This document shows positions 1,346 to 31,695 of a stretch of 39,958 nucleotides of DNA, piece after piece. This stretch comes from a virus. A program made the position numbers and the translations under genes. Numbering within the stretch: the first letter of the stretch is position 1; each line of letters begins with the position of its first letter. Below the pieces are notes generated by a model, which saw nothing but the letters and a program-made list of their open reading frames with translations, was not told the DNA's origin and made no database searches. The stretch lies in the IMG/VR virus record IMGVR_UViG_3300031601_000004, positions 1 through 39,958 of that record; one strand, written 5' to 3'.

Positions 1346-1357
1346 AATATATTATAA
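1346..1357 (+). promoter_or_regulatory. Candidate promoter motif, AATATATTATA class
   Basis: AATATATTATAA lies 23 nt after the first terminator and about 45 nt before the start at 1403. The surrounding 15-mer is identical to the one at 28642-28656, also in a gap between a terminator and a gene. No start site is known. The AT-rich background makes this a candidate only. Confidence 0.4.
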
Positions 1358-1402
1358 TACAGAGTATAAGCGTATATTATTATAAGAAGGAGAAAAATTA
1401 CT

Positions 1403-1961: not shown

Positions 1962-2582
1962 ATGATTAAAATATTACTAGCCTCTAATAATAGAGGAAAA
2001 TACGAAGAATTAGTAGAGACTTTTGCAGAAAACGGATTTGAGTTAATCTTTGACGGGAATTTAGACCTTGAAGAAGACTCACTCATATTAGAAAAGAATG
2101 CTGAGACAAAAGCGATATGTGGAGCAAAGCAACGACAAATGCTCGCAATAGGCGAAGATACAGGATTTTTTATTCCGGCACTAGACTACTTTCCAGGGGT
2201 GCATGCCAACCGTTGGATGGAAGGAACATGGCATGAAAAACGAATGAAGATATTAGAATTAATGGAAGGTCGGTTTGACAGACGTGCATGGCTTATTAAC
2301 AATTTTGCAATTTCAACTCCAACTGGAGATATAATTGGAAATGCTAAAGTTCAAAATGAATATACAATTGGATATGAAGAACATATTAATCCAGATTCAG
2401 AAACTTTTGGATATAATGAATTATTGATTATGCAAGGGCATTATATTGGAGAATTAGAAAAAGACGAAAGAAATTTTTTAAAACATCGTGCAAGATTTAT
2501 TAAAGAATTAAAAGCTGATATGTTTTATAATAGTAGTAATAAATATTATCAAAATCTGTTATTACAGGAGCGTGGAAAATAA
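1962..2582 (+). CDS. RdgB/HAM1-like non-canonical purine NTP pyrophosphatase
   Basis: This 206-aa protein matches the HAM1/RdgB (XTP/dITP diphosphatase) family along its length: the N-terminal phosphate-binding signature LLASNNRGKYEEL (residues 5-17), the catalytic segment GEDTGFFIPAL with Asp66, PGVHANRW (79-85), and the C-terminal FGYNELLI and KHRARFIKEL blocks, equivalent to the family FGYDP and SHRGRA motifs. The family hydrolyses ITP, dITP and XTP to monophosphates. In a phage it could clean or reshape the dNTP pool. It is followed by the polymerase fragment with an overlap (TAA at 2580-2582, ATG at 2582), so the two are translationally coupled. The ribosome binding site is weak. Family is confident; substrate is not. 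Confidence 0.9.
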   Translation: MIKILLASNNRGKYEELVETFAENGFELIFDGNLDLEEDSLILEKNAETKAICGAKQRQMLAIGEDTGFFIPALDYFPGVHANRWMEGTWHEKRMKILELMEGRFDRRAWLINNFAISTPTGDIIGNAKVQNEYTIGYEEHINPDSETFGYNELLIMQGHYIGELEKDERNFLKHRARFIKELKADMFYNSSNKYYQNLLLQERGK

Positions 2583-4546
2583 TGAACTTACAAATTAGAA
2601 ATAGAGATTATAGTAAAAACATTACTTTCCAAAATCTATGGTTAAAAGAACAATATTCACGGCTTAGAAAGATATATTCTCCAGAAGAATTATCTAAAGA
2701 CGATTTAGTTAATCTTCTAATGACTAAATATACACAAAGAAGATTATCAAATGGTAGACTATTCTCGAATACTTCAAATGAAAACACTGTTATGACACAA
2801 GAGCAGTTTATCGATTTATTCTTAAATAACGAATACATTCTATCTGGATACGGTGTGTTGTATCAAGATCAAGCAAATTCAATTAATATTAGCTCATCAG
2901 CACTTAAATTCTTATTAGACTCACGAAAAATTTATAAGACAAAGATGGAGGCAAGCCCTCATGGTTCAGAACAGTATGTTTACTACAGAATTTTACAGTT
3001 AACATATAAGGTTCTAGCAAATAGTTATTATGGAATTCTTGGTGAACGAAATTCAACGTTCTATAATCCACATGTACAAAATTCTATTACAATGACAGGT
3101 CAAGATTTAACTACAACTGCAATTATATCGTTAGAGAATTTTTTAGCTGATAATACAGAGTTTAATGATTTTGACGACATTATGACTTTTGTTCAAGAAA
3201 CAATAACAAAAGAAACAACTGATACTATTCTTAGATATGTTGATGTACCAAAAGATGGAACAGACTTACTTATGTATTTTCAAGGTAAGACTAGAACATT
3301 AGGTACAGTAGCTGAAGACAAACTTGAAGACATGATCAACAAGTTAGATTCTGAAACTATTAATAGACTTTATTATAAAAATAAAGTTCTTAATTTTATA
3401 TTTGATAGTACTTATTTAAAAGCTAAAATGACTGAGCTAGTTCAATTTAAATATGGTGAAACACCAGAAGATGCTATGCTTGAGCCATTAGCCGAATTCA
3501 AAGATGTTATCGTTAACTTCTGTTTCTCAAATGTAATATTTGAAGACAGATACAAACGAGTTATGAAAGACATGCGTAAAAGTACAATCACTGCAGATAC
3601 AGATTCAGTATTTATTAATTTAAATAACTATATCAACGAGACTACAGTGGGATTAAACTTAGATTCTGAAAATAAAGTTCAACAAATGACAGTAATGAAT
3701 GTGTACATTAGTATTGTTACAGAAGTATTAAAAGAAATATTCTGGAAACTTACTGGAAACATGGGCTTATTAGATGAATATAAACCAATCATTAATATGA
3801 AATCTGAGTATTTATACAAACGAATTATGGCTACAAGAAATAAAAAGAATTATAGTGGTATAATTACTGGTGAACTTGGAAAACTGTTAACCAATCCAGT
3901 TCTAGATATTAAAGGTCTTGCAATTCGTAAAACTACAGTTCCTAAGAAATTAAGAGAACAGTTTACGGAAATATTGAAAGATGATATTCTAGGTGCTGAA
4001 AAAATTAATATCCGAGCAATACTTGGTAAGTTTGATGCTCTTGGATTAGAGATTGAAGATTCATTACGAAAAGGGGAATTATTATATTCACTTCCTAAAA
4101 GTATGGAAATGTTCGACTCATATAAAAATCCTTCTACTCTCGAACAAGTAAGAGGTTCAATTATATGGAATGCTCTAGAACGAGATAACCAAATCGTACC
4201 ACCAGAAAAAATAAATCTACTTAAATTAAAAACTGCGGATAAAGTTCATCCAGCATTACTTGAATTAGAAAAGAACTATCCTAAGAAATACAAAGCTATT
4301 ATGAGAACAGTTTATAATGAAGATTTAGAACAAGAACCAGATATTGATATTTCAAGATTTGGAATGAGCGTCATTGCTGTACCAAAAGGTGTAGATAAGA
4401 TTCCAGAATATCTAAGACCACTTATTGACTACAGAACAATGGTAAGTAAAAATATGCAAAATGGTTATATAATGTTAGAGTCTCTAGGTATTTATACTGA
4501 AGAAGTTGACTCTACAAAATACAAATCAAATATCATAGAATTATAA
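2582..4546 (+). CDS. Family B DNA polymerase, C-terminal palm/thumb fragment lacking motif A
   Basis: This 654-aa protein aligns by eye with the C-terminal half of T4 gp43-type polymerases. Visible parts: a segment around residues 85-121 resembling the stretch after motif A; the fingers motif B with Lys143 and NSYYG at 147-151; motif C as ADTDS at 338-342, giving palm aspartates; and a KKNYSG segment near 419 with DIKGL downstream, typical of the thumb. The 3'-5' exonuclease and the motif A DxxSLYPS aspartate are absent, and the two upstream genes do not contain them. It therefore probably works with a separately encoded N-terminal half, as in split polymerases of some T4-like phages. A long insertion (about 185-330) separates motifs B and C. 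Polymerase identity is strong; the split is inferred. Confidence 0.88.
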   Translation: MNLQIRNRDYSKNITFQNLWLKEQYSRLRKIYSPEELSKDDLVNLLMTKYTQRRLSNGRLFSNTSNENTVMTQEQFIDLFLNNEYILSGYGVLYQDQANSINISSSALKFLLDSRKIYKTKMEASPHGSEQYVYYRILQLTYKVLANSYYGILGERNSTFYNPHVQNSITMTGQDLTTTAIISLENFLADNTEFNDFDDIMTFVQETITKETTDTILRYVDVPKDGTDLLMYFQGKTRTLGTVAEDKLEDMINKLDSETINRLYYKNKVLNFIFDSTYLKAKMTELVQFKYGETPEDAMLEPLAEFKDVIVNFCFSNVIFEDRYKRVMKDMRKSTITADTDSVFINLNNYINETTVGLNLDSENKVQQMTVMNVYISIVTEVLKEIFWKLTGNMGLLDEYKPIINMKSEYLYKRIMATRNKKNYSGIITGELGKLLTNPVLDIKGLAIRKTTVPKKLREQFTEILKDDILGAEKINIRAILGKFDALGLEIEDSLRKGELLYSLPKSMEMFDSYKNPSTLEQVRGSIIWNALERDNQIVPPEKINLLKLKTADKVHPALLELEKNYPKKYKAIMRTVYNEDLEQEPDIDISRFGMSVIAVPKGVDKIPEYLRPLIDYRTMVSKNMQNGYIMLESLGIYTEEVDSTKYKSNIIEL

Positions 4547-5131: not shown

Positions 5132-5800
5132 ATGAACTTACAAGTAGCAATGCCGTATGAAAAATGTCCATTTAACTGCCCTATGTGTGTGGCAAATGGG
5201 AGAAAAAGATTTCACAATTTTTATAAATCAAATAAAGACACGTATTTAGGTCTTTTAAAATATCAAGCTACATCAGAAAAATATAAAGATTTTGTAATTA
5301 CAGGCGCATCAGATCCATCATTGAATATTCATTGGTTACATGATGTTTTAGAAGCGTTAGAAGGCGTTCATACTGAATTACAAACTAAAAATTATAATAT
5401 TGAGCCAAATAAACTTCCATACTTAAATGTTTTAGCTTATAGTATTACTAATAGTAAAGAATATTTATCTGCATGGGCTTATCCAAGATTAAACAATGGA
5501 ACAAATCGTCTAGTTGTGTTATTAACTGAAGATTTTAAATTTCTAAATGAAACGAACTTTAGTCCAATGGGTTATGATCAAATTACATTTAAGATTTTAC
5601 AAGATACTGCAGATGAAAAAACAAATAAATGGATACAAAAGAATAAAATGAAAGATCTATCTAATATTTATGCAATTGTGGATAAATATAACGGTAGTAA
5701 AACAAGTGTATATTTAGATTCATCATGCCAAGATAGTCATGGGAGATATGAGATTTTCAGAGCTGATGGAAAAATGTATTCTAATTGGGAGGAAGAATAA
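5132..5800 (+). CDS. Radical SAM protein
   Basis: This 222-aa protein has a CxxxCxxC motif very near its N-terminus (Cys12, Cys16, Cys19, in CPFNCPMC), the signature of radical S-adenosylmethionine enzymes that bind a [4Fe-4S] cluster. It is followed by a beta-strand and glycine region (DFVITGASDPSLN, about residues 53-66) placed like the family GGE motif, though here it reads GAS. At about 220 residues it is short, close to NrdG- or QueE-sized members, but I see no feature that assigns it to either. A GGGAGG site precedes the start. Its stop overlaps the next ATG (TAATG), so the pair is coupled. Possible roles include DNA or tRNA base modification. Superfamily is fairly sure; reaction unknown. 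Confidence 0.75.
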   Translation: MNLQVAMPYEKCPFNCPMCVANGRKRFHNFYKSNKDTYLGLLKYQATSEKYKDFVITGASDPSLNIHWLHDVLEALEGVHTELQTKNYNIEPNKLPYLNVLAYSITNSKEYLSAWAYPRLNNGTNRLVVLLTEDFKFLNETNFSPMGYDQITFKILQDTADEKTNKWIQKNKMKDLSNIYAIVDKYNGSKTSVYLDSSCQDSHGRYEIFRADGKMYSNWEEE

Positions 5801-9917: not shown

Positions 9918-9934
9918 AACAATAAATTATATGA
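9918..9934 (+). promoter_or_regulatory. Candidate promoter motif, AACAAWWWWTTA class
   Basis: AACAATAAATTATATGA lies between a strong terminator and the start at 9956, ending 21 nt before it. It belongs to a set of six similar intergenic elements in this window. Confidence 0.4.
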
Positions 9935-9955: not shown

Positions 9956-10309
9956 ATGAAGAGTATTAATAAAGATATGCAAGATTATTTTATTAAGATT
10001 GCACCTGATTTTTCAGTGCTTGATATGATAGAAAAATACTTCTATGATAATGATGAAGCTGAAGGTATATTTAAGGATGTATGTTATTATAAATCTAATA
10101 TACTTGCAAATGTAGATGTTGATGTTCCGATATATAGAGGAATGTTTATTATACATTCTACAGGAGACATTACAGTAAATATGGAAGATGATGAATTTAC
10201 TGTTTTTCCATACTGCCCAGATACTCAAATTTTAATAGCACTTAATGATAGCAATATAGTTATTAGTTCTGATGCCGTTATAGATCTAATTGTGGGGGTG
10301 GCTTTCTAA
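9956..10309 (+). CDS. Unknown protein (117 aa)
   Basis: This is a 117-aa acidic protein with an N-terminal helical segment and a C-terminal half that reads as alternating beta strands (around IYRGMFIIHSTGDITV and onward). I do not recognise it. An AAAGGAG site precedes the ATG, and the stop overlaps the next start as TAATG. It opens a unit that includes two other unrecognised genes and perhaps the long acidic repeat protein. Confidence 0.75.
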   Translation: MKSINKDMQDYFIKIAPDFSVLDMIEKYFYDNDEAEGIFKDVCYYKSNILANVDVDVPIYRGMFIIHSTGDITVNMEDDEFTVFPYCPDTQILIALNDSNIVISSDAVIDLIVGVAF

Positions 10310-11058
10310 TGAAACGATATATGAAAACCGTACTTGATGTTGATATTTTATTAGATATAAAATCTTTGACGCGAGATGGAATTGGCGGTTTTACTGTTGA
10401 TACTGTAAGTGCTGCGAAGGTTGGTTATAATGACCCTTTGCTATATACAAGCAGAGCTGTGAGCATTATTTCAGGATCTACTGAAACCAATACACTAATT
10501 ACTAATGATGGCTTAGTTGCCGTTCTTAGAGCAGCTGAGACACTTGAAATAATAGATATATTTGAAGATGAAACTACAACATATCAAGAAATCATGCCAA
10601 CTGGTTATACTGAATTATCAGCATATAATGAAATTATAAATCCTGCATCTACTAGAATTCTACCAATAGATGTTATAGCTGGTGGAATTTTACAATACAC
10701 TAATCAATTACAATTTATAGCTGAAACAGAATATCATTTTTCATCAGAAATGACTTATGGCTTAACAACTGATGATTATGGTTTTTATATAACTGATTTT
10801 ACTGATTGAGCTAATGATTATGCTACTAGCACTCAATTTTCAATAGTAAAAAAACAATTTATAAAAATAGAAACACCTTTAACTATAACAAATGTTGTAC
10901 TTAGTATAATTAATATAGATGAAGGAATTGAAATAGAAAATAAAAATAATGGTATATATGAACTTAAATATTTAGATATAAATGCAACAGAATTTTTAGA
11001 ATTAACAATTACTGTTTCAGATATTATTGGAACTCATGGATATATTAAAATTTACTAA
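10309..11058 (+). CDS. Unknown beta-rich protein read through an in-frame TGA
   Basis: The frame runs from ATG 10309 to TAA 11056-11058 with one TGA at 10807-10809, giving 249 residues if TGA is Trp. Sequence on both sides of the TGA is typical coding sequence in the same frame, with no other stop for over 240 bases afterwards. A GGGGGTGG site lies before the start. The protein looks mostly beta-stranded, with an N-terminal part rich in Thr and Ile and a C-terminal module of about 75 residues resembling a small beta-sandwich by pattern only. It could be structural, but no family is recognised. The alternative is a gene ending at 10809 followed by untranslated coding-like sequence. Confidence 0.72.
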
Positions 11059-11356: not shown

Positions 11357-11374
11357 AACAATAATTTATATAGA
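11357..11374 (+). promoter_or_regulatory. Candidate promoter motif, AACAAWWWWTTA class
   Basis: AACAATAATTTATATAGA ends 34 nt before the start of the long acidic repeat gene. It is a member of the recurrent intergenic set. Confidence 0.35.
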
Positions 11375-11408: not shown

Positions 11409-14400
11409 ATGGATAAAAATAAAATCAAAAGTCTTCTTAACGAGGGAAAATCTGAAAATAGATTAGCGCTATTATTAGAAGAATTAGAAACAAAAGCAAC
11501 TAAAAAATCAGATCCAGAAGTAAAAAATCCAGAATTATCAAATAGTGATCTTTTTTCTTCTAAAGCCAAAGACGAAGTGAAAGAGGTTATTGTTGAATCT
11601 ACAAAACTTTCTGCCAAACAAAAAATGGCATTTCTTCTTGAAAAATATGGTGTTGAAAACTTAGTGCAACTTGCTGGGGAAGAAAGAAATAGATTTTTGA
11701 AAGAACTTAACAACCCAACTACTAAGTTTATTAGTCCTAATGTTCTTTTAGAAAATATTGATACTGCTGCAGAAAATAAAAATGTGGATGATGCAAATAG
11801 AGCTGCTGCTGATAAAGGTGATGCTGCTTTGATTACAGCTAAAGCTAAAAAGCAACAACAAGATCGTCTTTCTAAAAATGCTCTTAACACAGATGGTTCA
11901 CATTTACTTAATGATGCAGTTCAACATGAAAAAGAAGAACTTGAACCTGAAGTTGAATCTCCAGATCCAGAAAAAGACCCTGAATTTGATGGGGAATTTG
12001 ATGATGATAAAAAAATTAAAAACAAAAATATAGATAACAAAGAAGGAGATGATACTATCAAAGCTAAAGATAAAGCATTAGATAGCGTAAATGAATCATT
12101 AGAAAGTATCTTCGATATCCTTATGGATTCGAAACCTCTTTTCGAAGAGGAAGTAACAGGAAAAGGCGAAGTTGCTATGACTGATAATGAAGCTACTAAA
12201 GAATCAGACGGTGAAGTTGCAAAACCTACTACTACAAATAATGATATTTTTACAACTGACGAACATAAACAAGACGAAGAAGTTAAAGAACTAGTTATCG
12301 AAGGAGAACTTCCTGAAGCGTTAAAGAAAAATATGAAAGACGACAAAGACGATTCAGATAAAACCCCAGAAAAATTAGAAGATGGTTCTAAAGATGAAGA
12401 TCATGACGAAAAATCTGACGATGACGAAAAAGAATCTAAAGATGATGACAAAGATGATAAAGATTCTAAAGCTGATAAAAAATTAGAAGAAGGCGAAATA
12501 CCTGAACAATTTAAAAAATCTGCAGATAAAGAAGATTCTAAAGACGACGATAAAGATTCTGATAAAAAAGATGAAAAATCTGACGATAAAGATGACAAAG
12601 AAGAAGATGACAAAGATTCTAAAGATGATAAAAAATTAGAAGAAGATGACAAAGATTCTAAAGATGATAAAAAATTAGAAGAAGGCGAAATACCTGAACA
12701 ATTTAAAAAATCTGACGACAAAGAAGAATCTAAAGATGATGAAAAATCTGATAAAAAAGATGACGACAAAGAAGAATCTAAAGATGATGAAAAATCTGAT
12801 AAAAAAGATGACGACAAAGAAGACGATTCTAAGGAAGACAAAAAAGAAGAATTAAAAGAAGCTGAATTACTTCCTAAAGAAGAAGAAAAAAAAGTCGGAA
12901 TTAAACAAACTGAAAAAATCTCTGACACTGTCGACTCAGAAGGAAATCTTAAACCTGTTGAAGTAGTTGAACCACAATTAAAAGGTGGAGAAATTTCGGC
13001 TAAACCTCATGATGATGCTGATGCTGAAGGTAAAAAAGAACGTGCCGCAGTACTAGAAGATGTTACAGTTAAAGGTGATGTTGCTATGACTGATAATATT
13101 GCAACTAAAGAAACTGATGGCGAAGCTAAAGAACCTACAACAACTAATACTGACATTCTTCCTACTGAAGAACACAAAGAAGTAGAAGAAATCGAAGAAG
13201 TTATTGTTGAAAATTCTGTTGAACTTTCAAATGCAGCTGTATTTATCAGTATTCCTATTAATGAAGGTGAATGATTTGCAACAGACTTAAGTGAAACTGA
13301 ACAATCATTATTACAAGAAGCTCTTAAAGTATTTTATGGTGTTTTAAGCGGTCTTAATTTAAATGAGACTGAAGATTTTGATATGCCTGCAGGTTCAGAA
13401 GCAGATATTAAAGTATATACCGAAAAAATTGAAATAGAACTTCCTATTAATGAACCAATCGATGAACTTACTGAAGAAAATACTCAAAGACTTCAAGAGG
13501 CTTTAGACGTGTTAAACGCTGTTCTTAAAGAATCTCTTGGTGGAATAGCTCAAATCGCAGCACCTGCTGCTGGTGGAGTTGTTAAAAAATTATTCCCTGA
13601 TACTGGTAAAGCTGACAAAGATCCAGAAAAAGCTGATGACGCAACTAACTCTGATCTTATGAGTGGTGGAGCTACAGATGATGTTAAAGAAATCGTAGTT
13701 GAAGATATAACATCTAAAGGTGACGCTGCTATGACTGATAATATTGCAACTAAAGAAACTGATGGAGAAACAAAAGCTCCTGACGTTGTTAATACAACTA
13801 TTCTTCCTACTGAAGAACACAAAGAAGTAGAAGAAGTGGCTGAAGTAGTTGTTGAAGACGTAACTGTAAAAGGTGACGCTGCTATGACTGATAATATTGC
13901 AACTAAAGAAACTGATGGAGAAAAAGCTACATCTACAGACACTAATAACGACTTATTCCCTACTGAAGAACACAAAGAAGTAGAAGAAGTTAAAGAAGTT
14001 GTAGTTGAAGAAACTCTTCCAACTGACACTCAAATTAAAGATGCAATGACAGATGAATCTACTGAAAAAGTAGATCACGATGTTGAAATCAAAAGTGGTG
14101 TAGTTGCTGCTAAACCTTATGACGAAGCTGATGCTGAGGGTAAAAAAGAACGCGCTGAAGTTATCGAAGAAGCAGGAGACCCTGCTAATGGAGATAAATT
14201 AAATAACGTTAATTCTGATACTCTTGATGACGAAGGTCAATTAAACGATCCTAAACCTGATTTAGAAGGTAAAGCTGAAGTTAAAGATGTAACAACTGGA
14301 ATTAGTGGAGAATTAAAATCTGGCGCTACTGTTGAAGATGTAACTGAAGGTTATAATTCGATTAAAGAAGCATTTTTACTAGAAGAAAATTACTTTTCTA

Positions 14401-14618
14401 AAGACAGTAGAATAATCTTAACCGCAAGTGAAAAAAGAACTAAATTGCAAAATCAAATGTCTCTTTTAGTAGCTCGTGACTCTCAAGATCCTCTTTATGA
14501 AGAACTTGTTAAAACGACTATTTTTGCTAAGAAACTTCAAAATCAACTTCAAGAAAGATATGCTGAAGTTGGAAAAACAAAATCAGAAGAATTAGTAACT
14601 TTAAAGGAAAATAAATAA
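11409..14618 (+). CDS. Large acidic repeat protein (1069 aa) read through an in-frame TGA
   Basis: From ATG 11409 (AAGGAGG upstream) one frame runs to TAA 14616-14618, crossed only by TGA 13272-13274. The sequence after the TGA continues the same repeat family, so reading it as Trp is well supported. Parts in order: an N-terminal helical region; a Lys/Asp/Glu-dominated low-complexity region (about residues 310-490) with tandem 13- and 16-codon repeats and repeated EEGEIPEQFKKS; then at least four copies of a 50-residue repeat with a core like AMTDNxATKExDGE, then PTEEHKEVEE, ending in a VVVE/VIVE strand; and a helical C-terminus. The protein should be extended and strongly negative. An internal head, scaffold or DNA-mimic role is speculative. 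The family recurs in the gene at 21471. Confidence 0.82.
12477..12713 (+). repeat. Direct repeat of an LEEGEIPEQFKKS module
   Basis: The segment encoding KKLEEGEIPEQFKKS occurs at about 12477-12522 and again at about 12668-12713, nearly identical at DNA level. A related but diverged ELPEALKK segment occurs near 12308. Confidence 0.8.
12603..12680 (+). repeat. Tandem 39-bp repeat, two copies
   Basis: Two adjacent 39-bp (13-codon) units at 12603-12641 and 12642-12680 encode an acidic DDKDSKDDKKLEE-type peptide. This keeps the frame and looks like slippage or unequal exchange. Confidence 0.85.
12714..12830 (+). repeat. Tandem 48-bp repeat, two copies plus a partial
   Basis: Units of 48 bp (16 codons) start at 12714 and 12762, with a partial third at 12810. 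They encode DDKEESKDDEKSDKKD. The repeat keeps the frame of the acidic protein. Confidence 0.85.
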
Positions 14619-14669: not shown

Positions 14670-14704
14670 CATGAAAAAATTTAAATCTTTAAAATTAATA
14701 TAAA

Positions 14705-14716
14705 AATATATTATAT
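14705..14716 (+). promoter_or_regulatory. Candidate promoter motif, AATATATTATA class
   Basis: AATATATTATAT lies 48 nt before the ATG of the RNA polymerase subunit gene and after a terminator. It matches the elements at 1346 and 28645 in 11 of 12 positions. Confidence 0.4.
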
Positions 14717-14764
14717 ACATGAAGCAATGTGAGAATTACGCTTCACAAGGAGGTATATATTTAT

Positions 14765-16669
14765 ATGGTTTCAGAGCGATTATTTAACTTCACGAATATC
14801 TTCATGAGCTACGAAGAATATTTGTATACCAAAGATGAACTTAAGGAACTTGTATTAACTGATTTTGCTGCACGCAATAATCCAGTAAAGATACAAATTG
14901 GTCCTGAAATCATCGACGCAACCATAGGTCGAGTTTTAATTAACTTACTTATTATGAAACCTTTTGTAGAGAAAGGCGTTGTCTTGACTAAAGAGTTTCT
15001 CTTTGGATTCGACGCTGTCACAGAAGGAAATTTAAATAGGTATTTTAATTTTATATTAGACAAAAGTAAAAAAGTAGTAAATTTCACTAACCTTAGACAA
15101 GCAATGGCTGAAACAATTAATGAAATGGCTGACATTTCCGGAGAGCTAAATGTTCTTGCTGGAAACAGTTTATCATTCCATGACTTTGTTAGACTATTTG
15201 TAGAAGATCCAGAAGCTAGAGAAATATTCAATTATGAGTTAGGAGACTCATTACAATTTAATGAAATAGAAGATGCATTTAATAACTTAGGCGACAAAAT
15301 AAAAAAATTCTTTATAGACCGACCTGATACAGAATTGCATGCATTTATGAAAGCAGATACAGGAATTAATGCGAAACAACTTACTCAAGCAATTGCGTTT
15401 GTAGGATTAAAACCTGATATCGATGGAAGTATTATTCCAGTTGCAATTAATGCAAACTATTTAAATGGATTAGGAACACTTCAAAACTATTTTATTAATG
15501 CAAAAGGAACACGTAAGGCGCTAATAACAAATGCTAAACAAGTACGAAAGAGTGGTTATTTAACAAGGAAATTGTCACTTGCACTTATCGATAGATATCA
15601 TGATCACTTACTTGAAGATTGTGGTACAACTCACTTTATTATTTATAAAGTTGATAGCGACGCTAAGCTATTTCAAATTGAAGGAAGACATTATTACGAT
15701 ATTGATGCTGATGGAAATATTATATCAGAATTAAAAACCGTAAGTCATTCTGGAAATAAAGAACTAATTGGTAAAAATATCGGTTTAAGATCCCCAAGCA
15801 CATGTGGTGGAAAGCATGTATGCAGAACTTGTTATGGTTCAGAATTATCAGAAATTAACAAAGATTTAAATACAGGATTAGTTGCAGTATTGCTTTTAAC
15901 AAATCCATTGACTCAAAAACTTCTTTCAGCAAAGCATTTACTTACAACAAACGCTGAAGTAATTGATTGGGATTACAGTGGTAAGAAAGCATTTTTTGAT
16001 TATTTCTCAATTAATATGAACTCTATATTTATTAAAGACCCTGACACTTCAGTGGTTATTTATAAAGTTCCTGTTGAAGACAGAGATGAAGATGAAATTG
16101 GAGATTATACTGAGAAGATTGACATTTTATATCAAAACAAAAAAGTATTCACATACAAAGCACCAGCTGATATAAAGTTATATTACAATTTCAGAAATAA
16201 TTCTAAACCTGAAGAAAACATGCTTGAAGAAGAACCAACATTAAAACTACGAGGAACAGATTTTGACGATGGAGAACCAATTTTCACATTTATGGCAAAA
16301 AACAATGAGTTAACTAAATCTCTACAACAAATTCTTGACCTTATTGAATCAAGCAATCACTTAGGTATTACAGACTATAATGACCTAGTTAATACATTTA
16401 ACGATTTAATTATCGAAAATGGATTAGATATTGCATCTGTGCATGCTGAAATGATTAGTTCAGTATTAATACGAGATAAAGAAACACATGCAAAATTAGA
16501 TTTCTCTAAGGAGAAACTAAATAAATATGAAATTCACAGAGTATCCAAAGTCGTTTTAAATAGCGCACTTTCTAAATCATTAGCATTCGAAAGATTATCA
16601 GAGCAATTTGTTAATCTAGATACTTATGAAAAAACTGAAGAGAGTTTAATGGATTTCTTATTTCATTAA
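14765..16669 (+). CDS. RNA polymerase beta-prime subunit, C-terminal part (phage multisubunit RNAP)
   Basis: This is a 634-aa protein. I choose ATG 14765 because AAGGAGG lies 11 nt upstream; the in-frame GTG at 14729 lies before that site. Residues about 236-270 (LGTLQNYFINAKGTRKAL...SGYLTRKL) match the bacterial beta-prime bridge-helix region. A DCGT motif (near 286) and SPSTCGGKHVCRTCYG supply the four zinc cysteines. NPLTQKLLSAKH aligns with the trigger-loop segment PGTQLTMRTFH, keeping the Thr, Gln and His but not the Met-Arg pair. The NADFDGD magnesium site is absent, so it must be on another subunit, as in phages of the phiKZ/AR9 type with split beta and beta-prime. It heads a unit with the helicase and the SSB-like gene. 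Identity is strong; complex composition is inferred. Confidence 0.88.
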   Translation: MVSERLFNFTNIFMSYEEYLYTKDELKELVLTDFAARNNPVKIQIGPEIIDATIGRVLINLLIMKPFVEKGVVLTKEFLFGFDAVTEGNLNRYFNFILDKSKKVVNFTNLRQAMAETINEMADISGELNVLAGNSLSFHDFVRLFVEDPEAREIFNYELGDSLQFNEIEDAFNNLGDKIKKFFIDRPDTELHAFMKADTGINAKQLTQAIAFVGLKPDIDGSIIPVAINANYLNGLGTLQNYFINAKGTRKALITNAKQVRKSGYLTRKLSLALIDRYHDHLLEDCGTTHFIIYKVDSDAKLFQIEGRHYYDIDADGNIISELKTVSHSGNKELIGKNIGLRSPSTCGGKHVCRTCYGSELSEINKDLNTGLVAVLLLTNPLTQKLLSAKHLLTTNAEVIDWDYSGKKAFFDYFSINMNSIFIKDPDTSVVIYKVPVEDRDEDEIGDYTEKIDILYQNKKVFTYKAPADIKLYYNFRNNSKPEENMLEEEPTLKLRGTDFDDGEPIFTFMAKNNELTKSLQQILDLIESSNHLGITDYNDLVNTFNDLIIENGLDIASVHAEMISSVLIRDKETHAKLDFSKEKLNKYEIHRVSKVVLNSALSKSLAFERLSEQFVNLDTYEKTEESLMDFLFH

Positions 16670-16688: not shown

Positions 16689-18113
16689 ATGATTGAAGTT
16701 GGAAGAAATTCTATTGTTGTAAGAAATGTAGATCTTGAATCTCAGGCATTTAAAAATGTAAGATACAAGTTTTCTATATATGACAAGGTTTGTCATAAAT
16801 ATACGATGAGCGCATTTACAATAATAGATACAGATCTTTACTTCCCATCTAGTGTGGGAGCATATCAACTAAAATATTATTTTCCTGATAAAGATGTAAT
16901 TTATAATTATAAAACAACATCTAAATCAGCTCAAGCACTATATCTCATGAAGAATTTGCCTAGAGATGAGTTACAACAAAAGGCAATCACATTCCTTATG
17001 AAGATGAAGAATGATAAGTATATAAGACATCGTTTCTTATCCTTAGCGACAGGATCTGGTAAGACTTATGTAACTATTAATGTAATATCACAGTATAAAA
17101 AACGACCATTCATTGTTGTTGATACATTAGAATTAGCATCACAATGGAAAGAACAGTTTTTAAAACATTCAGATGTTAAAGAAAAGGATATTGTAATACT
17201 TTCAGGTGGAGATATTGTTGAATCAGAAATGAAACAACCCACTGGAAAGATTTATATTGCAATACACATGACACTAACAAATATGCTAAAAGATGATTTT
17301 AATTCAGTAAATAAACTTACAAATAAGTTGAAAATTGGATTTAGAGTTTTTGATGAAGCACATGTTAATTTTAAGAATGTATGTATGATAAATGCTTTAA
17401 GTAATGTTGAATATACATTATATCTAACAGCAACTCCAGGTAGAAGTAGTTATACTGATGATTATTTATACGGAAAAGTTCTTAGAAAAATTCCATATTT
17501 TAATGGAAAAGATATTATTAACCGAAAGTACCACACTGTTGTACTCTTTAAAATGGATAGTAAACCAAGCCTTGCCGAACAAATCTCTGTAAAAACAAAA
17601 TATGGATTTAGCGCAGGTAAATGGGCTTCACTTTTAGAGAAAAATAGTTATGAAATCTTTTGGGATGTAATTATAAATATATTTGAAACATTAAAGCTCA
17701 AAGAGCGTGGCAAGAAAATTGCCATAATGCTACCGACAATTAGCCTTATTAAAAAACTCCAAAAAGATCTTGTTGACAATCTTAAATTAGATGTTGGTTT
17801 ATTTATTGGAGAAGTTAAAGAAGCTGACAGAAAAGAAGCATTACAAAAAAATGTAATAATAACAAATGACAAAATGTTTGGAAAAGCAATTGATGTACAG
17901 GATCTAGAAATATTAATAAACTTTGTTCCCTTTGGAAGCGATGTTAAAACTGAGCAAATAATGGGACGGTTGAGATATGGAGAAGATAAGTTATCAATAC
18001 TAATTGATGTAACAGACATTGGATACACTTCATGCGTAAACCAAATGAAACTTAGAAAACGGTTTTATAAGAAAAACGTAAAAAAATTAATTGAAATAGA
18101 CAACGACGACTAA
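16689..18113 (+). CDS. Superfamily 2 DNA/RNA helicase (UvsW-like)
   Basis: This 474-aa protein has the SF2 helicase motifs in order: motif I (Walker A) LATGSGKT near residue 121, Ia (VVDTLELASQW), motif II DEAH in FRVFDEAHVNF, motif III LTATPGR, a helicase C domain beginning KKIAIMLPTISLIKKL, motif V-like region, and motif VI as QIMGRLRYG. A 115-residue N-terminal region precedes the motor. DEAH plus this domain size resembles T4 UvsW, which remodels recombination and replication intermediates; an RNA helicase role is less likely. A GAGGTGAT site precedes the ATG. It lies 19 nt after the RNA polymerase gene and 21 nt before the SSB-like gene. Confidence 0.88.
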   Translation: MIEVGRNSIVVRNVDLESQAFKNVRYKFSIYDKVCHKYTMSAFTIIDTDLYFPSSVGAYQLKYYFPDKDVIYNYKTTSKSAQALYLMKNLPRDELQQKAITFLMKMKNDKYIRHRFLSLATGSGKTYVTINVISQYKKRPFIVVDTLELASQWKEQFLKHSDVKEKDIVILSGGDIVESEMKQPTGKIYIAIHMTLTNMLKDDFNSVNKLTNKLKIGFRVFDEAHVNFKNVCMINALSNVEYTLYLTATPGRSSYTDDYLYGKVLRKIPYFNGKDIINRKYHTVVLFKMDSKPSLAEQISVKTKYGFSAGKWASLLEKNSYEIFWDVIINIFETLKLKERGKKIAIMLPTISLIKKLQKDLVDNLKLDVGLFIGEVKEADRKEALQKNVIITNDKMFGKAIDVQDLEILINFVPFGSDVKTEQIMGRLRYGEDKLSILIDVTDIGYTSCVNQMKLRKRFYKKNVKKLIEIDNDD

Positions 18114-18134
18114 ACAAGGAGAGAATAATTAATT

Positions 18135-19229
18135 ATGCAAGCAAAATTTGATCACTTAGAAATGGTACTATTTGATAGTACAATCGCACATTTTAAATTA
18201 ACAATCAAAGGGTCTTTCACAAGAGGACGACCTGATAATTCAACATCAAATCTAATATACATGAACACATATACAAATAGACAAGGTAAAACGATTAATA
18301 CATTAAAAATGAATCCTAATATTTATTTAATTTATGAATTCCGTGGAGATACTTACGATGCAAGTAAACAACTTTATTCATCATTCCCACAGTTATTCCC
18401 AATTAGAGAAGCAATGAGCGAACTTAAAGATCTTTTACAATCTGGAGAAGCTTTTATAGATGTAGAAGGAATCATACAAGTAAACCCTCTACACCAAGAA
18501 CCTATCGTTATTGAAGGTATTGGTAAAGATAATAAATGGATTAGTTTTGGTATTGCTGCAGTAGATGAATCTGACAGCCAAGGAAACATTATTCGTAAAA
18601 TACCTGGAATTGCAATTCAAATTTCAGACTCAGAATATGCTTCAATATTAACAACAGAAGAATTTTTAACAGTATACAGTATTGTAACAGATCTTGATTT
18701 AGCTGGAATTCAAACACAGTTAGCATCACTATTTTATCTTAGTTCTGAACTAGGATCTACTGGTGGAGCTCCTGCGTATCAAGCTCCTGCTAATAAACAA
18801 TATAGACAACCACAATACAGCAATAATAATCAACAACTTCAACAACCGTATAATGGCAATCAAGGTGCACAACCATATAATAATGGTAATCAAGGCCAAG
18901 GTGGAGATCAATCACAAGCTTATACACCTAGACCTACATCTAAACCAACATACAATAACCAACCTCAAACAACAAGAAGTTCTTACAAACCTAGAGTGGC
19001 ACCAGTTGTAAGACAACAACCAGAAGTAACACCTGGGCAATTTGTAGATCCACAACCACAAACAACACAAGGAAATACAGTGCAACAACCTACTACAAGA
19101 GGCAATCTTCCTCCTCGTAATATTGAGAAAAACATCGTAAATATGAAGAACGTTGAAGAAACACCAGTAGCAAAATTTGATTTCAACGATCCCGATGCAG
19201 TCAACAGCATTTTTGACGATGAGAAATAA
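18135..19229 (+). CDS. Putative single-stranded-DNA-binding-like protein
   Basis: This 364-aa protein has an N-terminal folded region of about 210 residues rich in beta strands, then a disordered linker of about 130 residues dominated by Gln, Asn, Pro, Gly and Tyr, and a short acidic end (FDFNDPDAVNSIFDDEK). A beta-rich head, low-complexity linker and acidic tip is the layout of bacterial and phage SSB proteins, whose tip recruits partners. Its place after the helicase fits. I do not see a sequence match to a known OB-fold family, so the call rests on architecture and context. AAGGAG lies upstream with a longer spacer than usual (about 12 nt). Confidence 0.45.
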   Translation: MQAKFDHLEMVLFDSTIAHFKLTIKGSFTRGRPDNSTSNLIYMNTYTNRQGKTINTLKMNPNIYLIYEFRGDTYDASKQLYSSFPQLFPIREAMSELKDLLQSGEAFIDVEGIIQVNPLHQEPIVIEGIGKDNKWISFGIAAVDESDSQGNIIRKIPGIAIQISDSEYASILTTEEFLTVYSIVTDLDLAGIQTQLASLFYLSSELGSTGGAPAYQAPANKQYRQPQYSNNNQQLQQPYNGNQGAQPYNNGNQGQGGDQSQAYTPRPTSKPTYNNQPQTTRSSYKPRVAPVVRQQPEVTPGQFVDPQPQTTQGNTVQQPTTRGNLPPRNIEKNIVNMKNVEETPVAKFDFNDPDAVNSIFDDEK

Positions 19230-21040: not shown

Positions 21041-21057
21041 AACAAATTATTATATGA
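21041..21057 (+). promoter_or_regulatory. Candidate promoter motif, AACAAWWWWTTA class
   Basis: AACAAATTATTATATGA lies after a terminator and ends 30 nt before the ATG at 21088. It is a member of the recurrent set. Confidence 0.4.
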
Positions 21058-21470: not shown

Positions 21471-22586
21471 ATGTTAAATAAAAAATTACAAGTTTTACTA
21501 GAAAGTTTAAAAGGCGAAGTTGCAAAAACTGATAATGAAGCTACTAAAGAACAAACACCAGAAGTTTATAAAGTTCAACTAAGTAATACTAATATCTTCC
21601 CAGCTGAAGATCATGAAGAAAAAGAAGAAGTAAAAGAATTAATTATTGAAGATAAAGATTATACTGAAACTGAATTAAAAGCTTTATTCGAAGAATTAGA
21701 ACTTGATACTAACAAATATACTTTTAGCTATCTTGCTGAAGAGTTAGGTTTTGAACTTTTAGAAGATGAAGTAACATCTAAAGGCGAAGTTGCAAAAACT
21801 GATAATGAAGCTACTAAAGAAACTGAGGGAACAACGGCAGCTCCTAGTTCTGATAACAAAGATACTTTTGGATCAGATGAGCATGAACAAAAAGAAGAAA
21901 TTGAAGAAGTAATTGTTGAAGAATATACTAAGGAAGATTTAAATGATATATTCGAAGAATTAGAACTTGATACTACTAAATTTACTTTTGCATATCTTGC
22001 TGAAGCACTAGGTTTCAAACTTTTAGAAGATGAAGTAACATCTAAAGGCGAAGTTGCAAAAACTGATAATGAAGCTACTAAAGAAACTGAGGGAACTCTT
22101 TTAACTCCTGTAAAGAATAACAAAGATACTTTTGGATCAGATGAGCATGAACAAAAAGAAGAAATTGAAGAAGTTCTTGTTGAATCTGCTAAATTAGTAG
22201 AATACTTACAACAATTTGGCTATAATCCTCTAAATGAAGGTGTAGGCTCTTGAATTGCACGGAAAATGGGTAAAGACCATAAACAAAAAAACATAGATTT
22301 CAAAGATGGAGCCCAAAAATACAAAGATATGAATTCCCTTGATACTGGAAAAAAATACGCTCAATTAAAAAAAGCAAAAAAGGTAGTTACTAAAGACTCA
22401 AAAGCTGCTGGTATGGAAAACCAAAAGAAAGAAAGATTTATTAGAACAACTAGAAAAGCTGGATTTAAAATGGCCGAAGTTAAGGCTTCTCCTAAGGCTT
22501 CTCCTAAGGCTTCTAAATCTTCAACAGGTGCAAAAATAACAAAAGCGAGCCCAAATAATGTTAAAAATGCAATGTCTGAAAAATAA
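21471..22586 (+). CDS. Acidic repeat protein with basic C-terminal tail, read through TGA
   Basis: One frame runs from ATG 21471 (AAGGAGG upstream) to TAA 22584-22586, interrupted only by TGA 22251-22253, giving 371 residues if TGA is Trp. The N-terminal 260 residues are acidic and hold three copies of the KGEVAKTDNEATKE repeat and two copies of a helical module (FEELELDT...AYLAE.LGF.LLE). After the TGA the character flips: about 110 residues rich in Lys, with a KASPKASPKAS stretch like histone H1 or nucleoid-protein tails. The repeat family is shared with the gene at 11409. A charged, two-faced protein bound to DNA or packaged in the virion is possible. If TGA were a stop, the basic tail would have no good start. 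Confidence 0.8.
21508..22187 (+). repeat. Three TDNEATKE repeats, with a 264-bp tandem duplication
   Basis: Repeat copies lie at about 21508-21655, 21762-21923 and 22026-22187. The helical module between them is also duplicated: its FEELELDT-coding segment is at 21687 and at 21951, giving an exact 264-bp (88-codon) period. The DNA encoding GEVAKTDNEATKE is almost unchanged between copies, so the duplication is recent or kept uniform. Confidence 0.88.
22482..22514 (+). repeat. 12-bp tandem repeat coding KASP
   Basis: The unit AAGGCTTCTCCT occurs at 22482 and 22494, with a partial at 22506. It encodes KASP repeats in the basic tail. Confidence 0.85.
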
Positions 22587-22639: not shown

Positions 22640-22651
22640 TATATATTATAT
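22640..22651 (+). promoter_or_regulatory. Candidate promoter motif, AATATATTATA class
   Basis: TATATATTATAT lies after a terminator and ends 46 nt before the RNase H start. It differs from the 14705 element in one base. Confidence 0.35.
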
Positions 22652-22697
22652 AATTGAGATATTAGTAGACTATATTAACGAAAAGGAGAAATGAAAA

Positions 22698-24588: not shown

Positions 24589-24833
24589 AATTTAAAGATG
24601 ACAAAGGTGTTATGATTGTATATGATACTGAAGTTCATATAATATATACTGATGAAAAAGAAGTTAGCCGTAAATATCCATTATATGCAGATTATCCTTC
24701 TGGAAACTCTAAGATTATGCATGACTGTTTGAAAATTATAAATCTCGGAGGTTATTTAATAAATGATGAGGCTCTAGAAAAATTTGACAGGATAATTGAT
24801 GGTTACATGGCTGACGAAGTGTTAGAAGACTAA
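24576..24833 (+). CDS. Small unknown protein (85 aa)
   Basis: This 85-aa acidic protein has an N-terminal beta hairpin pattern and a C-terminal helix. It overlaps the preceding gene by 13 nt, and its stop overlaps the next ATG (TAATG), so three genes appear translationally coupled. No family is recognised. Confidence 0.72.
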   Translation: MERLEFKDDKGVMIVYDTEVHIIYTDEKEVSRKYPLYADYPSGNSKIMHDCLKIINLGGYLINDEALEKFDRIIDGYMADEVLED

Positions 24834-25390
24834 TGGAATATTTATTTATATTAGGACCATCTGGCTCAGGAAAAACAAATTTAGCAAAGAACTTGCAAAA
24901 ATTTAATTCTAAATACAAATGGTTAACTCAGACTACAACAAGACCAACAAGGTTAAATGAAAAAGAAGGTAGAGAATATTATTTCCTGTCTGAAGAAGAT
25001 TATGCTTTTTTAGATAGCCATGAAGATTTAATATGTCAAGTTAAAAAAGAGTTTGCTCCATATAGTTACGGAACACCTATCTGCGATCTTGATGAAACTA
25101 AGATAAATATAATTGTAGCATGTATAGAAGGCTTTTTAGATTCACTTACAAAGGTTAAAGAGGCCGATACTATTTCAGTTCTGTTTATCAATAATGTAAA
25201 ACCTGAAATTGAAAGAGACGCTAGAAGCTTTCATGACGAGGAAAAATATAATAAAATTGTGCTTGAAAAAGTGCAAGATATATATCAAGGGACTTTTAAA
25301 TTGATAGAAATATCACATGAGAACCTTAAGAAAATTCGTAATAACAAGAGATTATTATTAGAATTTATGGGGGAAAAATGAAAAAAATAA
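24833..25390 (+). CDS. Guanylate kinase-like nucleotide kinase
   Basis: This protein of 182 residues plus three has the guanylate kinase layout: P-loop LGPSGSGKT at residues 7-15, then the GMP-binding block TTTRPTRLNEKEGREYYFLSEEDY with the typical TTRxxRxxExxGxxYxF pattern, and a lid and helical C-terminus. It should phosphorylate dGMP or GMP using ATP, feeding dGTP synthesis. The frame meets TGA at 25379-25381; with TGA as Trp it adds WKK and ends at TAA 25388-25390. That TGA overlaps the ATG of the next tiny ORF. There is no strong ribosome binding site; the start overlaps the previous stop. Confidence 0.88.
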
Positions 25391-26014: not shown

Positions 26015-26776
26015 TTGGCAGCAATAAAATTAATGGAACGAACCAATTATCTTAACAAAGATATTGAATACATTAAAAATACAAAGATCGTTGAGTATGA
26101 TATTAGATCCGCTGGATTTACAACTCTACGATATAAAAAACTTCTTCCAAGTGATATCATTGACAAACTTGAGAAGATGCCCAATAAAGATCGAAATATC
26201 TATATTGGAAAACAAATTCGAAAGCATCCGAATATTGGTGAAGAGCTAATCAATACTCTTATAGATATTCGTAAGGACTTTGCAATGTTAAATGATATTG
26301 AAGAAGCTGATGTTTTATCAATTAAAAAAGATGCGTTATTCTTGATTAAAAAGGACCCGAAAGCATTAGTAATTCGGGAAATATTTGAATTCAGAGCTAA
26401 AGACGAGTATACATCATATTGTTATTTAAATAATAAAGAATTTTATTATTCAGCTTATACAGAAAAATTAACAGTAAAAGGAATTGGTAAAGAGAACCAA
26501 GAATTGCAAGATGCTTACTTATTAAAAGATATAAAGAACATTTTAAAAATGGCTGAAAAACTTATGCCAGACCAAATGTTTGCATATTTAAAAAAATATC
26601 GTAGTAGATATCTTACAAGGGAATTAGACAAAAATACTTATAGAAATCTAGATACTGGTGAATTTAGTATTAACGGTTATAAATTAAAAGACCTTCCAGA
26701 TGATCTTTTGGATGATATTGACATAGTTTATAATTATATTAATTACTTAATACCATTATTTAGATTGTTAGTTTAG
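26015..26776 (+). CDS. Unknown conserved-looking protein with polymerase-like motif pair
   Basis: This is a 253-aa protein, probably from TTG 26015 with GGAGATGAG about 10 nt before it; ATG 26033 is the alternative. Residues about 27-38 (IVEYDIRSAGF) and 100-110 (ADVLSIKKDALFLI) resemble, in order and spacing, the two aspartate-bearing strands of polymerase palm domains (EYDxxSx and DxxSxxxDxxF). The pattern is suggestive but could be chance, and no fingers motif is seen. I recall similar phage proteins without known function. A helical C-terminal half follows, with a Tyr/Arg-rich segment near 190. Confidence 0.7.
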   Translation: MAAIKLMERTNYLNKDIEYIKNTKIVEYDIRSAGFTTLRYKKLLPSDIIDKLEKMPNKDRNIYIGKQIRKHPNIGEELINTLIDIRKDFAMLNDIEEADVLSIKKDALFLIKKDPKALVIREIFEFRAKDEYTSYCYLNNKEFYYSAYTEKLTVKGIGKENQELQDAYLLKDIKNILKMAEKLMPDQMFAYLKKYRSRYLTRELDKNTYRNLDTGEFSINGYKLKDLPDDLLDDIDIVYNYINYLIPLFRLLV

Positions 26777-26784
26777 GAGAATTT

Positions 26785-27633
26785 ATGAAATACATTAGAA
26801 CTAATATATTTACTGATATAGAATTTAAACGAATTACAAAAACTATAATGGGCAATACTAAATTAGAAGACAAAATAATTTTTAAAACAAAAAGCCATTG
26901 GGATAAAACTATAAAATACTATAGCATACGAAGACCAACTGTAGCAAGTGTTAGAAAGCTTATTGAATCTTTTAATAAAAGAAAATTTGTACCACAAAAT
27001 GTAGGCCCAACACATATTGTACTTGAAAGAAAAATTCCATCTCAACTTAAACTTGAGTTAATTACAAGCATTATATTAGCAAGTAATTATGGTGGAGGAA
27101 AGGGTCATAATACTCATCCATATTATTCAGAGTTTTATGTTGGAACTAGAAATATTGATTTAAAATATATTGGCTTTAACAAACAATATACATTAGACGA
27201 ATTATTTAGCATATTTAATAATAAAGTATCAAAGACTATAATTGGCACAGTTTTAGGAAATTTAGATATTAATCATTCTTCTAAGAAGTTAATTATGGAA
27301 TGTGTATTAAATGGAAAAATAGAACCATACAGAGTACTTGGCGGAGCTACAATAGTTCAATTTTCAAAGAAAGAGCTTATGGAAATTATAAATAATGGGA
27401 ATTTTATAGCTAAACGAAGTGTCCCAATGTGCGGAGATAGAACTGATATAACAAATCGATATAGACTAGTAATGCATCAGGATGTTATCGACGAAGATAT
27501 TATTTTTGAAATAATGTCTACAATAACTGATAAATATGCAAAACTACGATTTGCATATACAACAAAAACTAAAAAATTTTTAAAGCGTGTTAAAGGTAAA
27601 ACTGAATTAGAATTATGGTTGAAATTACAATAA
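26785..27633 (+). CDS. Unknown protein (282 aa)
   Basis: This 282-aa basic protein follows the previous gene by 8 nt with AGGAG before its ATG. It has a Gly-rich turn followed by His residues (NYGGGKGHNTHP, about residues 98-109) and a Cys-Gly-Asp segment near 215. These may be binding sites, but no family is recognised. It ends a long transcription unit; two hairpins follow. Confidence 0.75.
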   Translation: MKYIRTNIFTDIEFKRITKTIMGNTKLEDKIIFKTKSHWDKTIKYYSIRRPTVASVRKLIESFNKRKFVPQNVGPTHIVLERKIPSQLKLELITSIILASNYGGGKGHNTHPYYSEFYVGTRNIDLKYIGFNKQYTLDELFSIFNNKVSKTIIGTVLGNLDINHSSKKLIMECVLNGKIEPYRVLGGATIVQFSKKELMEIINNGNFIAKRSVPMCGDRTDITNRYRLVMHQDVIDEDIIFEIMSTITDKYAKLRFAYTTKTKKFLKRVKGKTELELWLKLQ

Positions 27634-27642
27634 TAATTTTAG

Positions 27643-27659
27643 AACAAATTATTAATGGG
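27643..27659 (+). promoter_or_regulatory. AACAAWWWWTTA-class element near an operon end
   Basis: AACAAATTATTAATGGG lies 9 nt after the stop of the 282-aa gene and runs into a hairpin. It matches the core of the recurrent set, but no gene starts within 160 nt, so it could make a short leader RNA or be a chance match. Confidence 0.25.
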
Positions 27660-27673
27660 ATTAGAGTCCCATT
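27654..27673 (+). terminator. Hairpin, weak terminator
   Basis: A perfect 7-bp stem AATGGGA/TCCCATT with a 6-nt loop is followed by pyrimidine-rich rather than pure T sequence. It lies just after the long unit ending at 27633. Confidence 0.5.
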
Positions 27674-27714
27674 GTATATCTCTTCATAGTTTCTTTCTTC
27701 ATTTCTCTTTGAAC

Positions 27715-27755
27715 GTCAAAATAGGCCCTCTCTTCAGTCTATTTTGACACTTTTT
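27715..27755 (+). terminator. Hairpin with 10-bp perfect stem, probable terminator
   Basis: GTCAAAATAG (27715-27724) pairs perfectly with CTATTTTGAC (27739-27748) across a 14-nt pyrimidine-rich loop, followed by ACTTTTTAAT. The long unpaired loop is unlike the compact loops of the other terminators, so it may also be a regulatory RNA or a protein-binding site. Confidence 0.6.
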
Positions 27756-27778
27756 AATCTAAAAAGCGTTAGAATAGG

Positions 27779-27795
27779 AACAATTAATTATATAA
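27779..27795 (+). promoter_or_regulatory. Candidate promoter motif, AACAAWWWWTTA class
   Basis: AACAATTAATTATATAA lies 24 nt before the ATG at 27820 and after two hairpins. It is a member of the recurrent set. Confidence 0.4.
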
Positions 27796-27819
27796 TTATA
27801 TGAAAATTGAGGTGAGAAT

Positions 27820-28611
27820 ATGGCTAAATTACACAAGTGTCCATTTTGCAAAAAGAGCTATATAGTTGTTGATGCATTATACGGTCATATGGAAAAAGAT
27901 CACAAAGACGAGCTACATGGTTTACCTGCACAACAAATTGAATTTAATTGGCGTAATAAATATGCGCTAACAAAAGAAAATGGAAAGTGTGTAATGACTG
28001 GTAAAGCAACGAAATTTAATATTGTAACGGGAAGATACGAAAGATTTGCAGACGACCATGCTAGAAAAATGTATCGAGAATATTTTAGAAAAAATATGAT
28101 TCGAAGATATGGTAAAGATACTATACTAGATGAACCAGATCAACAAAAGAAAATGCTTGCAAGCCGAAGTATTTCCGGAGAATATAAATGAAATGTTGGA
28201 AAGAAAACACAGTATACTGGAAGCTATGAAAGAAAATTTCTTGAATATTTAGATGTATATGTAGATTGAGCTAATCCCGGAGACATCATGGGTCCAGCTC
28301 CAATGACATTTCCATATATAGGTGAAGACAAAAAACAAAGATTTCATATTCCAGATTTTTATATTACTAGTTTAAATCTTATAGTGAATGTAAAAGCGTC
28401 TGATAATAAGCATTATAGATTGAGAGATCTTGATATTGAGAAAGCTCAAGATGCCGCAATTAAAAAATCGAATTTCAATTACTTAAAGTTATATGATAAT
28501 GACTTTGATAAATTTTTAGAGATAATTGAAATGATAAAGAAACAAACACCAAATAATAAGCACAAAATTTTTCACGAAAATACTGATTATACAAACATAC
28601 AACTTAGTTAA
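27820..28611 (+). CDS. C2H2 zinc-finger and PD-(D/E)XK-like nuclease, read through two TGAs
   Basis: The frame from ATG 27820 to TAA 28609-28611 crosses TGA at 28189 and 28267, giving 263 residues with Trp at both. Residues 5-27 form a zinc finger (CPFCKKS...HMEKDH). A basic middle follows, then a segment YTGSYERKFLEYLD, PGDIMGPAPMTF and FHIPDFYI...LIVNVKAS, typical of a phage nuclease of restriction-endonuclease fold. In the PD...(D/E)xK pattern the acidic residue before xK appears as Asn here (NVK), so activity may be lost or rely on another residue. The block before the second TGA continues after it without a break, which strongly supports readthrough. GAGGTGAG precedes the start. Confidence 0.8.
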
Positions 28612-28630
28612 TATAGGTTGTATGTTTTTA
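28594..28630 (+). terminator. Intrinsic terminator overlapping gene end
   Basis: A 10-bp stem AACATACAAC/GTTGTATGTT, with a loop that contains the TAA of the nuclease gene, is followed by TTTAAATG. The hairpin begins in the coding sequence. Confidence 0.7.
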
Positions 28631-28644: not shown

Positions 28645-28656
28645 AATATATTATAA
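28645..28656 (+). promoter_or_regulatory. Candidate promoter motif, AATATATTATA class
   Basis: AATATATTATAA lies 65 nt before the AAA+ gene start, just after a terminator. The 15-mer around it is identical to the one ending at 1357. Confidence 0.45.
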
Positions 28657-28721
28657 AACCGAGTTAGTGGAATAGTTAAGTTTTAATTATTCCAAATACA
28701 AAAAACATAAGGAGGAAACAA

Positions 28722-31688: not shown

Positions 31689-31695
31689 AATAACA

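Follow-up and report, generated by a model that had tools for sequence, protein, structure and literature searches.

The reassignment of UGA to tryptophan coincides, in the phage analysed here, with the predicted regulon of its non-virion RNA polymerase (nvRNAP), and this is the new element with respect to the known AR9-type systems. The product of the gene at 14765-16669 is an ordinary additional member of the AR9-type nvRNAP beta'-C family and, taken by itself, represents one further branch of an already known polymerase family. Its best explanation, which we hold with high confidence, is the nvRNAP beta'-C subunit of an AR9-type jumbo phage, including the early-to-late sequence of events proposed below. 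We also lean, with less assurance, towards regarding the nvRNAP switch and the stop-to-Trp switch of UGA as a single timed programme, in which late proteins would be gated at both transcription and translation. The 39,958 bases of the window, meaning the whole stretch of DNA analysed, make up a full IMG/VR virus record, which is linear and probably fragmentary. Its features are collected in Table 1.

Table 1. Features located in the window and the evidence or context for each
Feature	Position	Strand	Evidence or context
Early-type promoter motif	1347..1362	+	Upstream of 1403
Divergent family B DNA polymerase, AR9 g152 homologue	2582..4546	+	PF20286, PHROG 2927, tblastn to AR9
Late-type (nvRNAP) promoter motif AACA-N6-TATA	9918..9931	+	Upstream of 9956
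Late-class gene, one in-frame UGA	10309..11058	+	82 open codons past the UGA
Late-type promoter motif	11357..11370	+	Upstream of 11409
Acidic repeat virion-type protein, read through UGA 13272-13274	11409..14618	+	C-terminus like AR9 virion protein g153
Early (vRNAP) motif AAAAATATATTAT-ATACAT-G, predicted start G at 14721	14702..14721	+	AR9 consensus; upstream of beta'-C
Ribosome-binding site AAGGAGGT of the beta'-C gene	14747..14754	+	
nvRNAP beta'-C subunit gene	14765..16669	+	phmmer, tblastn, PHROG 3015, PF04998, AF2 model against 7s01_D
Bridge helix, residues about 239-274	15479..15586	+	Alignment; helices H239-253 and H257-274 in the AF2 model
Second zinc-binding domain of beta' (C286, C347, C353, C356)	15620..15832	+	Alignment of 18 homologues
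N-terminal arm of the trigger loop, residues 368-395, signature TQKLLSAKH (383-391)	15866..15949	+	Family-wide xQxxLSxKH
Trigger-loop insertion domain (TLID), residues about 396-510	15950..16294	+	Aligned with AR9 gp154 400-508, the TLID of that protein (PMC9209446)
SF2 helicase	16689..18113	+	Downstream of beta'-C, as in AR9 (g156) and other family phages
Late-type promoter motif	21041..21054	+	Upstream of 21088
Late-class repeat protein, one in-frame UGA	21471..22586	+	110 open codons past the UGA; internal ATG 22266 without ribosome-binding site
Early-type promoter motif	22641..22656	+	Upstream of RNase H gene 22698
Late-type promoter motif	27779..27792	+	Upstream of 27820
Zn-finger endonuclease, AR9 g233 homologue, UGA codons 124 and 150	27820..28611	+	TGG in relatives
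Early-type promoter motif	28646..28661	+	Upstream of ATPase gene 28722

Identity and parts of the beta'-C subunit

The open reading frame runs from an ATG to a TAA and encodes 634 amino acids with no in-frame UGA. Its product has the AR9 nvRNAP subunit gp154 (PDB 7s00_D) as a full-length homologue (phmmer, 2.2e-86), and tblastn gave 33.7% identity to AR9/PBS1 over 99% of the protein. PHROG 3015, 'RNA polymerase beta subunit', matched at 1.4e-73 (249 bits), and the Pfam family PF04998 (RNA_pol_Rpb1_5) at 33 bits, above its cut-off of 28.5 bits. A profile built from 18 relatives, AR9 itself being one of its rows, found 7s00_D at 2e-230, far above cellular beta' and phiKZ gp74. Structure prediction, which the sequence-only reading had named as a check, yielded an AF2 model of moderate quality (pLDDT 75, pTM 0.48) whose top five PDB matches were all AR9 nvRNAP beta'C chains, with phiKZ gp74 next; the structural search with this model found no unrelated fold fitting better than RNAP.

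The bridge helix, four zinc cysteines and trigger-loop segment that had been recognised from the letters alone were all located by alignment. The bridge-helix sequence is GTRKALITNAKQVRKSGYLTRK, and the four cysteines are invariant in 10/10 and 18/18 aligned phage proteins. These three elements occur together on one polypeptide without the DFDGD barrel. The Mg-binding NADFDGD is, as the same reading had stated, absent from the 634-residue protein, because phage beta' subunits are divided after the barrel that bears this motif (PMC7598289), leaving DFDGD on a separate gene. The sole look-alike, GTDFDDGE at about residue 496, was rejected as the catalytic motif, as it lies inside the insertion domain and is unconserved.

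The split after the DPBB barrel, the zinc cysteines, the trigger-loop signature and the TLID are all common to the window protein and gp154 of Bacillus phages AR9/PBS1 (PDB 7s00, 7s01, 7um0, 7um1), and in both cases an early promoter lies ahead of the gene and an SF2 helicase downstream. The window protein differs in belonging to a UGA-Trp phage, in being only about 34% identical, and in that its partner subunits lie off the 40-kb fragment. The phiKZ nvRNAP subunit gp74 (PDB 7ogp, 8que) also has the bridge helix and the zinc domain, and its trigger loop bears an insertion domain of similar kind, but it is much more distant (phmmer, 3.7e-14 over about 190 residues).

It is scarcely credible that the product is the packaged virion RNAP (vRNAP) beta'-C rather than the non-virion subunit. 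PHROG 2962, the vRNAP family, does match it weakly (5.5e-8) over a region common to both enzymes, but its 33 bits compare with 249 bits for PHROG 3015. Moreover, AR9 gp154 is an nvRNAP subunit, the gene has an early-type promoter and no UGA, and the vRNAP beta'-C of this phage is a different gene, of 399 codons, on an overlapping contig.

The trigger loop of the nvRNAP family

The trigger-loop segment of the nvRNAP subunit is PLTQKLLSAKH, with T383, Q384 and H391. Cellular polymerases have Met-Arg (M932 and R933 in E. coli) where the phage loop has Leu-Ser. It had been claimed that the loop keeps only the Thr-Gln and His positions of the cellular motif, and this was borne out; such a loop is not, however, peculiar to this protein. 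A comparison of ten divergent phage proteins shows Q384, L387, S388, K390 and H391 to be invariant. About 45 phage loci, that of AR9 among them, carry the pattern xQxxLSxKH, some of these loci being copies of each other. The 'alteration' is therefore the norm of the nvRNAP family. The replacement of Met-Arg by Leu-Ser might also be taken as the sign of an inactive or specially adapted polymerase, but this is very improbable given the spread of LSxKH over those loci; besides, PMC7598289 describes the core of the AR9 nvRNAP as active in catalysis, and the structure of the phiKZ nvRNAP was solved in the act of transcribing (PMC7618050).

Other subunits and overlapping contigs

No other RNAP subunit (beta'-N, beta-N, beta-C or gp226-type) was found within the 40-kb window, and no contigs reaching upstream of it were found. 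All five nvRNAP subunits are present in the nearest long relative, G001, a record of 332,864 bases which, besides beta'-C (locus L012), carries genes for beta'-N (with LLAADFDGD), beta-N, beta-C and a gp226-like specificity subunit, together with a vRNAP beta. From this relative a complete five-subunit nvRNAP can be inferred for the phage of the window. The tree unites the window protein with L012 and L013 (support 100/100) and sets it on the AR9/PBS1/phiR1-37 side, apart from the phiKZ-like rows. The suggestion of a split multisubunit RNAP of phiKZ or AR9 type, to be placed by phylogeny among jumbo-phage RNAPs, is supported in kind, the branch being that of AR9 and not of phiKZ.

Two observations concern the relatives. 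In G002 (L013:166-1245) a homing-endonuclease ORF, probably part of an intron, seems to split the beta'-C gene close to the bridge helix. The beta'-N of G001 (L052, 328 kb) keeps an N-terminal CxC...CxxC zinc ribbon though it stands on the AR9 side; phiKZ is reported to have this ribbon and AR9 to lack it (PMC7618050).

Contig G009 matches window positions 26378-39958 at 99.90% and extends about 30 kb beyond, and contig G012 overlaps G009 at 99.7-99.9%. The window, G009 and G012 look like separate records of one population, whose uncompared parts may differ. G012 encodes the 399-residue vRNAP beta'-C, which matches PHROG 2962 at 1e-68 and is 35% identical to AR9 g264 (3e-88); its gene contains two UGA codons. 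A separate virion RNAP, reached through these overlaps, together with AT-rich early and AACA late motifs, resembles the two-polymerase arrangement of AR9, as read from sequence.

Early and late promoter motifs

In AR9, early promoters have the form AAATATATATTAT-N6-G and late promoters the form AACA-N6-TA/G (PMC5312081). The early core is shortened in the window to ATATATTAT-N6-G, which is found at four places on the coding strand and at none on the opposite one; all four lie between genes, 56-76 nt before genes 1403, 14765, 22698 and 28722, and 0.015 occurrences were expected from shuffled intergenic DNA. The strict 13-base AR9 motif finds the beta'-C site only, and the core with the fixed N6-G finds all four. 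All early motifs found in the relatives examined are likewise intergenic. The late sites match the AR9 consensus but are extended to TATA or TATG: AACA-N6-TAT(A/G) occurs at four intergenic positions, 38-52 nt before 9956, 11409, 21088 and 27820, compared with 0.16 expected from shuffles. The late promoters of phiKZ, in contrast to the AACA-N6-TA of the window, are TATG (PMC7618050). The promoter of the beta'-C gene is of the early class and that of the preceding virion-type gene of the late class, an arrangement also seen in AR9. Recognition of the two motifs by vRNAP and nvRNAP, respectively, is inferred by analogy with AR9.

UGA as a tryptophan codon

Under code 4 the window contains five in-frame UGAs in four genes. 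A naive count of TGA-terminated ORFs was rejected as evidence of recoding, since AR9 gives similar counts; recoding was judged instead by the length of open frame past the TGA and by the aligned Trp residues. The frame stays open for 82-447 codons after the UGA in the four window genes, as against 0-18 codons for UGA-ended ORFs of AR9. The internal ATGs past the UGAs ending at 13274, 22253 and 28191 have no good ribosome-binding sites (ATG 13383 has none). Both UGAs of the endonuclease gene correspond to TGG-Trp in its two nearest relatives (L082 and L083), and W124 is present in all phage homologues checked, including those of AR9, BpSp and Staphylococcus phages. On G009 and G012, UGAs fall at positions that, to all appearance, are canonically Trp in homing endonucleases (EI-W-K, NLE-W-C), and of the two in the vRNAP beta'-C gene one aligns with a Trp and the other with a Phe of AR9 g264. 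As in-frame UGAs align with conserved Trp positions, UGA is taken as confirmed to be Trp in this phage, which upholds the earlier proposal of a UGA-recoded phage. Reading as Gly, as in the Absconditabacteria code, was rejected because the aligned residues are Trp or other aromatics. In the relative G002, whose helicase is 65% identical, UGA is still a stop.

The small number of in-frame UGAs in the window, five, would suit a standard-code phage carrying several pseudogenes or tolerating occasional UGA readthrough. This is nevertheless highly improbable, since the endonuclease UGAs are identical in three near-identical contigs (the window and two further ones) and, over all the operons classified below, 18 genes that are otherwise intact contain 40 UGAs between them, many at positions where Trp is canonical.

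Confinement of UGA-Trp to predicted late operons

Operons of the window, of G009 and of part of G012 were classed by their upstream motif, the class being carried down each operon between hand-drawn borders. In the eight early operons (46 genes) none of the 91 Trp codons is UGA, whereas in the 16 late operons (40 genes) UGA accounts for 40 of 81 and UGG for the other 41. The difference is significant by codon (Fisher, 9e-17), by gene (Fisher, 7e-8) and under permutation of whole-operon labels (p about 5e-5). Within the window alone, UGA makes up 0/60 Trp codons in early and 5/6 in late operons. The nvRNAP beta'-C gene falls on the early, UGA-free side, and the beta'-C gene of the packaged RNAP on the late, UGA-using side.

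The guanylate-kinase-like early gene 24833-25381, in the stretch 24833-25390, has a UGA end overlapping a short ORF, with a UAA two codons on. Here UGA possibly still serves as a stop in an early gene, and it was counted as such; if it were sense, the early tally would be 1/92.

A standard-code host is probable, given that sense UGA is avoided in the early genes. The host might instead itself read UGA as Trp, with a Mycoplasma-like code that the phage follows, the early/late contrast then having some other cause. In favour of this, UGA clearly encodes Trp in the phage, just as it does in hosts using code 4, and the window and the extensions searched yielded no tRNA, suppressor tRNAs included. 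We nonetheless consider a recoded host unlikely, because the early genes of a phage with 30% GC should then use UGA and none of their 91 Trp codons does, and because G002 retains UGA as a stop. Bacterial genomes searched for a host gave a single hit, of 25% identity on a short contig of a Clostridia MAG from sheep colon, which is too distant for a host to be named. A search of the window and its relatives for a homologue of the UDG inhibitor associated with uracil DNA found none, an empty result that says little.

Recoding of UGA to Trp in phages, and its proposed role in regulating late lytic genes, are known in outline from PMC11210395. In the stop-codon-recoded phages to which that paper, citing its reference 12, refers, the recoded stop is concentrated in late or structural genes, as here. 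What differs is that the codon is UGA in an RNAP-encoding phage of AR9 type, whose own promoters supply a second, independent label of timing. A search of the openly available literature found no description of UGA-Trp in such a phage. Early and late are marked by these promoters without recourse to gene function, a mark that the recoded codon tracks almost perfectly. The hypothesis linking recoding to timing hence becomes directly testable in an AR9-type phage, where transcription is expected to be independent of the host polymerase.

Proposed sequence of events

The injected vRNAP would, by analogy with AR9, read the ATATATTAT-N6-G promoters, that of beta'-C among them. The beta'-C subunit would then join beta'-N, beta-N, beta-C and a gp226-type specificity subunit, as the five genes in the nearest long relative suggest, contributing the bridge helix, second zinc domain and trigger loop with its insertion domain, while the DFDGD loop and the beta parts would come from separate genes. 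The resulting nvRNAP holoenzyme may transcribe the late operons from the AACA-N6-TA motifs. The UGA-Trp codons seen in the sequence lie only in these putative late operons, including the beta'-C gene for the next generation's virion RNAP, so many late proteins would need both nvRNAP and a recoding factor, probably phage-made, which did not turn up in the parts searched. If this is true, the early mRNAs made by vRNAP, with no UGA sense codons, would be readable by an unmodified host, and the changed code would be needed only by the nvRNAP-made late mRNAs, that of the packaged vRNAP included.

Neighbouring genes

The neighbourhood is conserved, with beta'-C followed by the SF2 helicase and the family B polymerase near. 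In AR9 the small virion protein g153 likewise lies immediately upstream of the beta'-C gene, and the product of 11409-14618, given the likeness of its C-terminal part to g153, has the look of a virion protein that carries a very large repetitive extension. The products of 11409-14618 and 21471-22586 are long acidic proteins with a common repeat of about 50 residues, 'DVTVKGDxAMTDNIATKETDGE...EEHKEVEEVxEVVVE'.

At 38042-39958 an intron-like stretch splits a ribonucleotide reductase gene; the stretch contains a LAGLIDADG-type ORF continuing past the window end, and on G009 it is followed by the second exon. An Rfam scan gave no family at the gathering threshold and no group I match for this insert. 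The small protein encoded at 5132-5800 has a CxxxCPxC motif and resembles radical SAM enzymes, with no clear family match. Behind one early-type promoter, 28722-36298 encodes a MoxR-like ATPase, a VWA protein, a ClpA/B-like AAA protein, an SPFH-like protein and a ClpP-like protease, a cluster of proteostasis type. An early-class operon of G009 (L087-L089, reverse-complement position 17532-18566) contains an apparent glyceraldehyde-3-phosphate dehydrogenase gene.
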